A DNA stretch of 64,000 nucleotides, taken from Burkholderiales bacterium. GTDB lineage: Bacteria; Pseudomonadota; Gammaproteobacteria; Burkholderiales; Burkholderiaceae. Under the pieces are notes generated by a model. It was not told the origin of the DNA, ran no database searches, and worked only from the letters and a program-made list of their open reading frames with translations. Shown in pieces: positions 53,087-58,094 of the stretch. Position 1 is the stretch's first letter. Every line of letters begins with the position of its first letter. A program made the position numbers and the translations under genes. The DNA lies in assembly GCA_021287185.1 (NCBI GenBank), contig JAJTAZ010000022.1:1-64000 (forward strand). The letters are read 5' to 3'.

Positions 53087-53881
53087 ATGAAACAATACCT
53101 CGACCTCATGCGCCATGTGTACGAACATGGTACGGATAAAACTGACCGCACAGGCACGGGCACACGCTCGGTATTCGGTCATCAAATGCGTTTTGATTTA
53201 ACTGAAGGTTTCCCTTTGGTGACCACTAAAAAATGTCATTTAAAATCAATTATCTACGAACTGCTTTGGTTCATCCAAGGCAATACCAACAACAATTGGC
53301 TCAAAGCGCGTGGCGTGACCATCTGGAACGAATGGGCGCGTGAGGATGGCGAACTCGGCCCGATTTATGGGCATCAATGGCGTTCGTGGAGCGATGGCAA
53401 AGGCGGTGAAATCGACCAACTCGCCCAAGTCATTGAACAACTCAAAAACTCGCCCGACTCGCGCCGCATCATCGTATCGGCGTGGAATGTCGCCGACATT
53501 CCAAACATGGCACTGCCGCCCTGCCACGCATTTTTTCAATTTTATGTGGCAAACGGCGAACTCTCGTGCCAGTTGTACCAACGCAGCGCGGATATATTTC
53601 TCGGCGTGCCGTTTAACATTGCATCCTACGCCCTGCTGACCTACATGATTGCGCAACAAACAGGTTTGGTCGCCAAAGAGTTCATTTGGACGGGCGGCGA
53701 CTGTCACCTGTACAACAACCACTTCACACAGGTACAAACCCAACTCGCGCGTGAGCCATTGCCCTTGCCGCAATTGGTCATCAAGCGCAAACCCGACTCA
53801 ATATTTGATTATGAGTTTGAGGATTTTGAGATTGTGAACTATCAGCACCACGAGGCGATACGGGCGCAAGTGGCGGTTTAA
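53087..53881 (+). CDS. thyA: Thymidylate synthase
   Basis: 264 residues, the standard length. Catalytic Cys146 in [10 protein letters not shown] and the folate-binding and phosphate-binding residues ([16 protein letters not shown]) are present. Converts dUMP to dTMP with methylene-tetrahydrofolate. The integron's last attC lies just after its stop. Confidence 0.97.
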
Positions 53882-53892
53882 TTATTGATAAA

Positions 53893-53963
53893 TTATTAAC
53901 GTTCAAGCTCAGGGGCGCTGCGCGGCTTTATCGCGCTGCGTCCCTTGGAGCGCAGGGTTGGGC
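53893..53963 (-). other. attC: attC recombination site
   Basis: Minus-strand reading: R'' GCCCAAC (53963-53957), an imperfect stem pairing GCTCCAAGGGACGCAGCG with its partner GCGCAGCGCCCCTGAGC, a short central loop, L' ending CTTGAAC, and R' GTTAATA (53900-53894). The sequence can fold into the bulged cruciform that IntI recognises. It lies 12 bases after thyA. Confidence 0.82.
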
Positions 53964-54001
53964 CTGTTTTCGCCGTCTCGCCAGCGCCGACTTTTGAAGC
54001 A

Positions 54002-54316
54002 TCACTCTTTTCCAACTTTTGGCCACGTTTCAATGCACATGCTGTGCGATACATCCTGCGTGAAATAGAACTCCCACTTGCCGTCAACCTTTTTCAGGAA
54101 GGCTTGCTGATCTCCGGTATAGCCGCCCATGGAATTTTTGGCATTTACGGTCATGCAGGCGAGATTTTCGCCGACCTGAGTGAATTTGCCGAACTTTGCG
54201 GAATCTGGGTCTTTCAGGTTTGCGAGAACAGCTTTCTTTGCTTCAGACTCGGCGCCACCGCACCCAGCAAGCAATATGCAACCAGCAATTGCAGCGGCAA
54301 TTTCAATGTTTTTCAT
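54002..54316 (-). CDS. Cassette gene 2: small lipoprotein
   Basis: 104 residues. A signal peptide ends in lipobox LLAGC (Cys19), followed by an Ala/Lys-rich start and the motif LKDPDSAKFGKF found in many small cassette and phage lipoproteins. It ends the cassette; attC follows 39 bases beyond the stop. Ten bases separate it from cassette gene 1, so both are expressed from Pc. Confidence 0.75.
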   Translation of the reverse strand: MKNIEIAAAIAGCILLAGCGGAESEAKKAVLANLKDPDSAKFGKFTQVGENLACMTVNAKNSMGGYTGDQQAFLKKVDGKWEFYFTQDVSHSMCIETWPKVGKE

Positions 54317-54325
54317 ATGCAGTTC

Positions 54326-54829
54326 CTATGCTTTGTCTTTTGCTGCTCGGGTTTTTGCATACTTATAGAGCGCAGTCGTTGCGCCACCAATGGCCACGAC
54401 GCCACCCCCGATTGCAACAGGGACTGCCCACGCAGGTGCTGTGCCGATGCCCACAAGAGCGAGGGCTGGCCCTGCCCAACCGCCGATGGCTGCGCCAGCC
54501 GCCGCAAACGGAACTGTGGCCGCCATGCCCATGCCGCCTGTGGCTAAACCAACACCTGAGCCAAGCACACCGCCAGCCACACCACCAATTGCTGCTCCGG
54601 CGGCACTGATCGCCCCCGTTGCGGATGTGCCAGCGGCGATTACTCCGACCGTTGTTGCGGCTGAGCCTCCAACAATTGATGCGCCGATAGCCACATTTTG
54701 CGCGACTGCTTTCTTGTCACTGGTGCGGGCAGAACGGTGAATGCCGTGCCGCGCTAAGTCTTTCAGCGTGACCTTGGTGCTGGCGGGGATGTATTCGCCT
54801 TTGTCTTTATCTTCGTCATTTGCACTCAT
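54326..54829 (-). CDS. Cassette gene 1: glycine-zipper membrane protein
   Basis: 167 residues. A polar N-terminal part is followed by about 110 residues of Ala/Gly-rich hydrophobic sequence with repeated G-x3-G spacings, which could form two to four membrane helices or a glycine-zipper pore. AGGAGA six bases upstream. GC-rich compared with the chromosome. No family recognised; resemblance to holin- or bacteriocin-like zippers is only compositional. Confidence 0.7.
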   Translation of the reverse strand: MSANDEDKDKGEYIPASTKVTLKDLARHGIHRSARTSDKKAVAQNVAIGASIVGGSAATTVGVIAAGTSATGAISAAGAAIGGVAGGVLGSGVGLATGGMGMAATVPFAAAGAAIGGWAGPALALVGIGTAPAWAVPVAIGGGVVAIGGATTALYKYAKTRAAKDKA

Positions 54830-54849
54830 TTCGATCTCCTATGGAAAAG

Positions 54850-54911
54850 GCCCAACTATACTTATGCGTCAACATGACACATAACATGAAAAATAACTTG
54901 ACACATAACAT
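54850..54911. other. attI: attI site with direct repeats
   Basis: The core site on the minus strand is GTTGGGC (54856-54850), where the cassette was inserted. Two 13-bp direct repeats, TGACACATAACAT, lie at 54875-54887 and 54899-54911 with a 24-bp period. Class 1 attI has two such integrase-binding repeats, DR1 and DR2. Confidence 0.8.
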
Positions 54912-54966
54912 ACCATCCAATTACGATGGATGCGTACATAATATCCACATTGGTAATACTTGTCAA
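54898..54966. promoter_or_regulatory. Opposed integron promoters Pc and Pint
   Basis: Minus strand: TTGACA (54966-54961), a 17-base spacer and TATTAT (54943-54938), a near-consensus Pc that drives the cassette and overlaps the intI 5' end as in class 1 integrons. Plus strand: TTGACA (54898-54903), an 18-base spacer and TACGAT (54922-54927) as a weaker Pint. The palindrome CATCCA/TGGATG (54914-54932) overlaps the Pint -10 and may be an operator. No LexA box is visible. Confidence 0.7.
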
Positions 54967-54971
54967 TTTCA

Positions 54972-55961
54972 ATGGCCTGTAATATGAATATTACCCATAA
55001 TCCTCCAAAGCTTTTAGATCAATTACGGCAAAGACTGCGTTACAAACACATGAGTTACCGCACCGAGCAGGCGTATGTGGGTTGGGTTCGACGCTTTATT
55101 TTGTTTCACAATAAGCGTCACCCTCAAGAAATGGGTAAGTCTGACATAGAATGTTATTTGACTTATTTGGCAAACGATTGCGGCGTTTCTGCTTCTACGC
55201 ATCATCAGGCTTTGTCCGCGCTTTTATTTTTGTACAAAGAGGTTTTGGGGGTGGCGTTACCTTGGTTAGATGAGGTCAGTCGCCCCAATCGCAGCAAGCG
55301 TTTGCCCGTTGTGTTGTCTGCGAACGAGGTGCTGGCCGTACTCGCACATTTGGAGGGCGTGCATCATTTGATGGTGCGCCTGCTGTATGGCACGGGTCTG
55401 CGTTTGCATGAAATGTTGATGCTGCGGATTAAGGATGTCGATTTTGAGATGAATCAATTGGTGGTGCGCTCGGGTAAGGGTGATAAAGATAGAGTCACGG
55501 TGTTGCCCAAGTCGCTCGTCGCTGAACTGCAACAACAGATCACACAAGCACGGGCTATTTTTGAGCAGGATCGTGCCACCCAACGCAATGGCGTGATGTT
55601 GCCTGATGCGATTGAACGCAAATACCCAAACGCGGGACAGGAATGGGGGTGGTTTTGGTTGTTTCCCGCCCCAAATGAATCCACTGAACCGCGCGCGGGT
55701 GTCGTTCGACGTCACCACATGCACCATCAAGCGATTCAACGCGCATTTAAGATGGCGGTCGCGCGTGCTCAGATTGCCAAACCGGCTACTTTGCACACAC
55801 TGCGCCACAGTTTTGCCACTCATTTGTTGCAATCAGGTACGGATATACGCACGATTCAAAGTTTATTGGGTCATGCCAGTGTAAAAACCACGATGGTGTA
55901 TACTCATGTCATTTCGCAGGGGGGCTTTGGCGTCATCAGCCCTTTGGATCGTTTGTTGTAA
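54972..55961 (+). CDS. intI: Integron integrase IntI
   Basis: 329 residues from ATG 54972 (an in-frame ATG at 54984 is also possible). Tyrosine recombinase with R144 in GTGLRLHE, H275 and R278 in LHTLRH, H301 in LLGH and nucleophile Y310 in MVYTHV. The integron-specific extra patch is present at about 210-232 ([20 protein letters not shown]), which marks IntI apart from XerC/XerD. It ends SPLDRLL like class 1 IntI. The catalytic frame looks intact. Confidence 0.95.
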
Positions 55962-56012: not shown

Positions 56013-56588
56013 ATGCACTCAACACATCCAACGCTTATGGGTCAGTATATCTCTTTGCGTACTATTTTAAAAACCGATTTCACGCCGTTACACGCGCTGA
56101 TTCAAGCCCACCCTCAGGCGTATTTTTACTCCAATATTGGCGAATCTCATGAGAAATTCACTTTGTGGTTTGAACAGGCTTTGGCCGACAAAGCATATGT
56201 GGTCGTGGATAATCCGACAGGCAAACTGCTCGGTAGTTCACGTTTTTACAACCACAATGCCCTTGTGCCACATGCCTACATCGGTTATACATGGTATGAC
56301 ACCGATGTCATGGGTACGCACGTCAATCCTGAAACCAAATTATTGATGCTCAGTTATGCGTTTGAAACTTTGAATTTATTGCGTGTCGGTTTTGAAGTCG
56401 ATGTCGATAATTTGCGTTCACGCGCAGCGGTATTGAAACTGGGTGCAAAACACGAGGGGATTTTGCGCCACCACCGTCGCCGTTGGAGCGATGGGGCTTT
56501 ATCAAATACTGACTCGTTCAGTATCTTGATGGATGAGTGGGCTCAAGTGAAAGAAAAATTATTGCAGCGGTTGTCGTTGCATCCTTAA
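56013..56588 (+). CDS. GNAT acetyltransferase (RimJ/RimL-like)
   Basis: 191 residues. The family pattern LLGSSRFYNHNA...YIGYTWYD and FEVDVDNLRSRAAVLKLGAKHEG fits RimJ/RimL N-acetyltransferases, which acetylate N-termini or small amines. Starts 50 bases after intI on the same strand; it is not a cassette, since no attC brackets it. Confidence 0.82.
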   Translation: MHSTHPTLMGQYISLRTILKTDFTPLHALIQAHPQAYFYSNIGESHEKFTLWFEQALADKAYVVVDNPTGKLLGSSRFYNHNALVPHAYIGYTWYDTDVMGTHVNPETKLLMLSYAFETLNLLRVGFEVDVDNLRSRAAVLKLGAKHEGILRHHRRRWSDGALSNTDSFSILMDEWAQVKEKLLQRLSLHP

Positions 56589-56674: not shown

Positions 56675-57622
56675 ATGTCTAAACCATTGACCCGAACCCA
56701 AGCCAATCTTATTCTACTCATCGCTGCCTGTGCGTGGGGTTGCGCGTTTGTACCACAATCCATTGTTGCACCATTTATTGGGCCAATGACGTTTACAGGA
56801 GCGCGTTTTTTACTCGGTGCAGTGGTGATTGCGCCATTGGTTTGGATGGAGTGGAAAAACTTGCGCATACACCAAGCCAATGATGACCACCCTGCACCGC
56901 CAATAACCCCGCGTGATTGGCTACATATTGCGTTGATGGGGGTATTGCTCTGCGCGGGAACGGTACTGCAACAAGTCGGGATGAAATACACATCGGTAAC
57001 CAATGCTGGATTTCTCACGGGTTTATACGTGCCTTTAGTGCCGATTTTGGGAATTATTTTATACCGTCGCCGTGTGCATTGGGTGGTTTGGCCTGCTGCC
57101 TTGGGTTGTTTAATCGGTACATGGTTGCTCACAGGCGCAGGGAAAATTGATTTAAATGTGGGTGATTTGTGGGTGCTTGCCACCGTCATCCCGTTCACAC
57201 TGCATGTGCTGTGGATTGGTGGCTTGGCGGAGCGTTTGCACGCACCATTGCTGGTCGCTTGGGGACAATTTATTGTGTGTGGACTGTTGGCAACGGCTTT
57301 TGCCTTGCCGATGGAAACGTTTAACTGGGACAACTTACCTCATGTGGTGTGGCCTTTGGCGTATATGGTGTTTATCTCGGTCGGTATCGGTTTCACGGGG
57401 CAAGTGATTGGGCAACGCTACGCCCGCCCTGCTGAATCTGCGATTATTTTATCCAGTGAAACAGTGTTTGCGGCTTTGGCGGGCGCGGTGTTTTTGAGCG
57501 AACGTTTGCCGATGTTGGGCTATATCGGCGGTGCTTTGATTGTCTTGGGCATCGTGGTGGTGCAAATTTTACCCGACCCAAAAAATGCCCCCAAACCTGT
57601 CGTTGAGCCATTTCAACTATAA
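56675..57622 (+). CDS. EamA/DMT-family permease
   Basis: 315 residues from ATG 56675, ten predicted membrane helices in two EamA repeats (AACAWGCAFVPQS near 20; LSSETVFAALAGAVFLSERL near 265). Drug/metabolite transporters export amino acids or similar solutes; substrate unknown. Confidence 0.87.
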   Translation: MSKPLTRTQANLILLIAACAWGCAFVPQSIVAPFIGPMTFTGARFLLGAVVIAPLVWMEWKNLRIHQANDDHPAPPITPRDWLHIALMGVLLCAGTVLQQVGMKYTSVTNAGFLTGLYVPLVPILGIILYRRRVHWVVWPAALGCLIGTWLLTGAGKIDLNVGDLWVLATVIPFTLHVLWIGGLAERLHAPLLVAWGQFIVCGLLATAFALPMETFNWDNLPHVVWPLAYMVFISVGIGFTGQVIGQRYARPAESAIILSSETVFAALAGAVFLSERLPMLGYIGGALIVLGIVVVQILPDPKNAPKPVVEPFQL

Positions 57623-57652
57623 GACTAAAACTCAGAAATGGCTCACACACGT

Positions 57653-57689
57653 AAACGGTTAGAAGTTTTTCCAAACATTCTAACCGTTT
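57653..57689. terminator. Intrinsic terminator after the permease
   Basis: A perfect 12-bp stem AAACGGTTAGAA / TTCTAACCGTTT with a 13-base T-rich loop, between the permease gene and the convergent BON gene. Confidence 0.75.
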
Positions 57690-57732
57690 GCTCAAGTTGA
57701 CTGAATTTTAGTCAGTTAACGTGACGAAGGCT

Positions 57733-58050
57733 TTATGGGCGAACAATGATGTTGTTGCGAACATCGCGCACACCACTGACACTGCGGGCAATGCGATCTG
57801 CTTCGTTTCTTTCCGATTGGCTATTGGCAAAACCCGAGAGTTGTACAACGCCTTTCAAGGTTTCGACATCAATCGCTTGCATGCTGACCATTGGGCTTTC
57901 AACGAAGCGCATGCGGATTGAGTTGCTGATGGCAGAATCATCAACGTATGAACCAACGGATTGTTGATCGCGCATTACCGAGCAACCTGAGGCAACAGTG
58001 GTCAATGCAATCAGCACGGCTATAGAGATTTTTGTGGCTGTATTTTTCAT
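57733..58050 (-). CDS. BON-domain lipoprotein
   Basis: 105 residues. Lipobox ASGC (Cys23), then one BON domain (AISNSIRMRFVES...VETLKGVVQLSGF...VSGVRDVRNNI). OsmY/YraP-like proteins that act at the periplasmic face of the outer membrane and support envelope stress resistance. Confidence 0.85.
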   Translation of the reverse strand: MKNTATKISIAVLIALTTVASGCSVMRDQQSVGSYVDDSAISNSIRMRFVESPMVSMQAIDVETLKGVVQLSGFANSQSERNEADRIARSVSGVRDVRNNIIVRP

Positions 58051-58094
58051 GGTAAATTCCTTTATGAATGGTTATTTATTGAGTTAGAATGTCA

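Follow-up and report, generated by a model that had tools for sequence, protein, structure and literature searches.

Integron arrays hold from 1 to more than 200 cassettes, and two-ORF cassettes are known as well (PMC8618304). Sedentary chromosomal integrons, as in Vibrio and Xanthomonas, sit in the chromosome beside a housekeeping gene, and in the mobile class 1 integrons IntI1 and attI1 are carried by a Tn402-type element or a plasmid. Here we analyze a 64,000-nucleotide stretch of a Burkholderiales genome (the window), in which we find a genuine but ordinary integron of a well-known kind in a small-genome host. With a probability of about 0.93, we read it as a chromosomal integron that is complete, carries one cassette and probably functions. 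The family of its integrase, its attC site, the complementarity of the cassette ends, a conserved attI box and its absence from two sister species are shown by the sequences; its recombination is predicted. A preliminary description had proposed a complete single-cassette chromosomal integron beside thyA, and all of the parts it named were found in place.

The integrase gene intI (54984..55961, + strand) encodes 325 aa from the ATG at 54984, with an alternative in-frame ATG at 54972. Profile searches matched its product to the integron-integrase family TIGR02249 with 458 bits against a cut-off of 265 (E=1.2e-137) and also to the Pfam phage integrase family. The closest solved structure is that of V. 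cholerae IntI4 (2a3v, 289 bits); in the alignment to it the catalytic R, K, HxxR, H and Y are all in place and the IntI-specific additional domain, a stretch of 25 residues, is kept, bearing out the specific patch noticed earlier. By these sequence features IntI is a true integron integrase, an IntI-type tyrosine recombinase. It is the sole integron integrase found in the genome (2.03 Mb, 98% complete), where the remaining integrase matches are partial and weak and would fit Xer-type recombinases. In an integrase tree, IntI falls into a set of five (support 100/98), the others being from G022 (same genus), G056 (same family, another genus), G147 (which carries a class 1 integron) and L011.

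The attC site (53894..53963, − strand) comprises R'' GCCCAAC, a hairpin and R' G^TTAATA, and was recognized by a covariance model, by identity to the attC of a blaOXA-2 cassette and by folding. The covariance model, trained on 17 attC sites taken from other integrons and not on that of the window, replaced a strict GTTRRRY pattern scan, which overlooked the sites adjoining intI in G022 and G056 and, because of the variant boxes, would overlook that of the window as well. Across the 64-kb window the model returned exactly one match, at 53895-53963 on the − strand (38.3 bits, E=1.6e-7), in agreement with the attC named in the preliminary description. Genome-wide, with 150 of 344 first-look candidates scored over 2.03 Mb, this was the only credible match, the next having E=2. 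A BLAST search against plasmids found the attC of the blaOXA-2 cassette to be 79% identical to the window site across all 70 bases, and an Rfam scan of 50-60 kb gave zero matches. Folded as DNA, the bottom strand (the window's + strand) was stabler than 200 of 200 shuffled sequences (z=-3.5), and its hairpin reached -21.2 kcal/mol compared to -17.5 kcal/mol for the top strand, in line with the use of the attC bottom strand in integron recombination (PMC2727003). One of the usual extrahelical bases, a T, can instead pair with a G, which may weaken strand choice here relative to textbook sites.

The attI region (54850..54911, − strand) was delimited by a repeat search and by comparison with G056 and G022. 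It contains the crossover point G^TTGGGC (between 54856 and 54855), an L-box, TTGACGCATAA, and the direct repeats indicated in the preliminary description, three copies with a 12-base period (54871-54911). The L-box lies upstream of the crossover, at a distance of 6 bases that the G056 integron shares exactly, and a close variant of it occupies the same position in the integron of G022. The cassette start G^TTGGGC (− strand, 54856-54850) is exactly complementary to R'' GCCCAAC (− strand, 53963-53957), confirming that the cassette ends obey the complementarity rule; since the cassette start pairs with its own R'', the cassette is delimited as the 956 bases lying from one crossover point to the other (53900..54855, − strand), in agreement with the two junctions of the preliminary description. 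Its G+C content is 56% compared to 45% for the window. We propose that IntI would bind attI as double-stranded DNA and attC through its folded bottom strand, and would integrate or excise the cassette as a 956-base circle with junctions at 53899/53900 and 54855/54856.

Two putative promoters face each other. The probable cassette promoter Pc (TTGACA-17-TATTAT, 11/12 consensus positions; 54966-54938, − strand) has the right position and points into the cassette, and the possible integrase promoter Pint (TTGACA-18-TACGAT, 10/12) lies at 54898..54927 on the + strand. Both had been named in the preliminary description; the consensus matches exist, but a scan of the region gave no more promoter-like sites than shuffled sequence, so we regard the two as plausible only. 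If Pc is used, it would drive both cassette genes through attI as a two-gene message. Near intI there was no match to a LexA box with fewer than three mismatches, and a search for the LexA DNA-binding domain, positive in 10 of 14 control genomes, found none in the window genome (G000), G022, G042 or G056, of which G022 and G042 are incomplete.

The cassette contains two open frames with apparent ribosome-binding sites, separated by a gap of 9 bases, in agreement with its earlier reading as a two-gene cassette. ORF 1 (54326..54829, − strand; ribosome-binding site AGGAGA) encodes a glycine-rich, hydrophobic, probable membrane protein of 167 aa. It belongs to no family in Pfam, NCBIfam, PHROG or PADLOC, and among 399 genomes of the order it has no convincing relative, only weak glycine-rich matches; its structure model was set aside as too poor (pLDDT 49). 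ORF 2 (54002..54316, − strand) encodes a 104-aa lipoprotein with the lipobox LLAGC. It matches phrog_2320, a phage family of unknown function (E=5e-19), and shows weak similarity to proteins of Klebsiella phages and plasmids, with no convincing relative among the same 399 genomes. The structure model of ORF 2 is moderate (pLDDT 65) and matched no solved structure below E=0.001; against a viral structure library it gave two matches below 0.001, both to entries that are uncharacterized or unnamed. Searches of viral contigs with both cassette proteins returned zero matches. Judged by their sequences, the two proteins most likely have a membrane or envelope role. That the cassette is a new unit of membrane protein and lipoprotein from or against phages (e.g. 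for phage exclusion), carried by an integron working without LexA control, strikes us as quite improbable.

The element lies between thyA on the left (53087..53881, + strand; TIGR03284/NF002497), which is outside the integron, and a GNAT acetyltransferase gene on the right (56013..56588, + strand; PF13302). Our comparison within the genus covers three genomes: that of the window, the one genome of its species, and those of the two sister species G042 and G022. In both sisters only about 300 bases separate thyA from the GNAT gene downstream, with no integron between, and G022 has a different integron elsewhere, between genes reading as parA/parB and yidC. The arrangement is thus not identical and fixed among all relatives. 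Since the thyA-GNAT site is empty in both sisters and G022 has its own, different integron, integrons appear to come and go within the genus, and this one does not appear to be a fixed sedentary integron. Upstream, the window is mostly 75-90% identical to G042, but identity rises to 97-100% from about 52.3 kb (52296) to the thyA stop (53881) and again to 99-100% from about 57.3 kb (57309-58086). These flanks suggest recent homologous exchange with G042 that did not include the integron; given the high identity on either side, integron and GNAT would form an unexchanged island. Over the first ~100 bases of GNAT (56013-56110), identity with the sister genes is only about 42%, while the remainder reaches 77-88%. 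An 8-base repeat flanking the element, TTATTGAT, might be read as a target duplication, but we discarded this idea; being short, A+T-rich and missing from the sister sites, the repeat is likely due to chance.

An integron with these parts could nonetheless be decayed or silent, its integrase unexpressed or its attC recombination-dead, with the cassette merely fixed in place. The lone cassette in a genome with no other credible attC would fit this, as would a host with neither a LexA gene nor a LexA box for IntI induction, and an R' that reads GTTAATA and not GTTRRRY; yet the intI frame is open over its full length and retains every catalytic residue, and the complementarity of the cassette ends is still exact. 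The right half of R' in the last cassette derives from attI, and non-GTTRRRY sequences are usual there, which argues against reading the variant box as decay. We consider a silent integron unlikely. Hardly credible is a second alternative, that the hairpin at 53894-53963 simply ends transcription, either of thyA or of the cassette genes, and that the locus is a lone integrase (In0) with unrelated genes beside it. A strong, G+C-rich hairpin just past the thyA stop codon invites such a reading, but a terminator scan made no call there, the attC model does match the site (E=1.6e-7), its likeness to the blaOXA-2 attC extends over the full length, and its complementary partner lies some 950 bases off, exact in sequence and at the intI-proximal end.

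For the complete integron that we favor, the history of the site carries its own alternatives. The whole platform would have been gained in the lineage of the window, or lost or replaced in the sisters, at the thyA-GNAT gap, and the three genomes compared fit either direction. That the genus had a sedentary integron from the start, lost at thyA-GNAT in the two sisters, is conceivable but doubtful. It would agree with the clustering of the G000, G022 and G056 integrases, weak as this is (91/76), and with the identity of GNAT between G042 and G022, which at 88-99% exceeds what these two genomes generally share and would suggest an exchange of this tract between them. Against it, the G022 integron is located elsewhere (parA/parB - yidC), its integrase is nearer in the tree to that of G056, from another genus, than to that of the window, and the G+C content of the cassette is far from that of the host.

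Among described systems, a class 1 integron with a blaOXA-2 cassette (L097 in G147, and the plasmids matched by BLAST) resembles the window integron in its anatomy of intI, divergent attI, cassette and attC, and the two are linked by related integrases in the same supported tree group and by attC sites 79% identical over 70 bases. The window element is nevertheless not a class 1 mobile integron: IntI and the G147 integrase are only about 60% identical, attI is different, there is no resistance gene, and, unlike class 1 integrons, it is chromosomal (neighbors thyA and GNAT), with no transposon parts among the typed neighbors. Nor is it a sedentary chromosomal integron as in Vibrio and Xanthomonas. 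It shares their chromosomal position beside a housekeeping gene, but with one attC it holds one cassette, not a large array, and is not conserved in the genus, the site being empty in G042 and G022. The integrons of G022 (L095) and G056 (L096) have the nearest integrases in the tree and a related attI box, but differ in carrying other cassettes and in the extra attC-like sites scattered in their genomes; the surroundings of L095 are different as well.

The window thus adds a clean minimal integron that comes with natural empty-site relatives and whose integrase belongs to a group holding a class 1 integrase. These relatives, its minimal form and the absence of a detectable host LexA make it a compact system in which to test how cassettes are captured without SOS control. 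It leaves the general picture of integrons unchanged. The preliminary description had called the single cassette rare, and this we could not sustain, since one-cassette arrays and two-ORF cassettes are already described (PMC8618304); L096, L002, L007 and L010 likewise each have a single attC match beside intI, with the reservation that the model may miss divergent attCs.

Matches to the attC model away from intI were seen in G022 (C8:72888, C4:82861 and C4:83841) and at several places on C1 of G056; these may be attC sites standing alone or clusters of cassettes that lack an integrase. In the class 1 locus of G147, an attI1-like sequence adjoins intI, and the first cassette is presumably blaOXA-2, judged by its N-terminus and in agreement with the BLAST search against plasmids.
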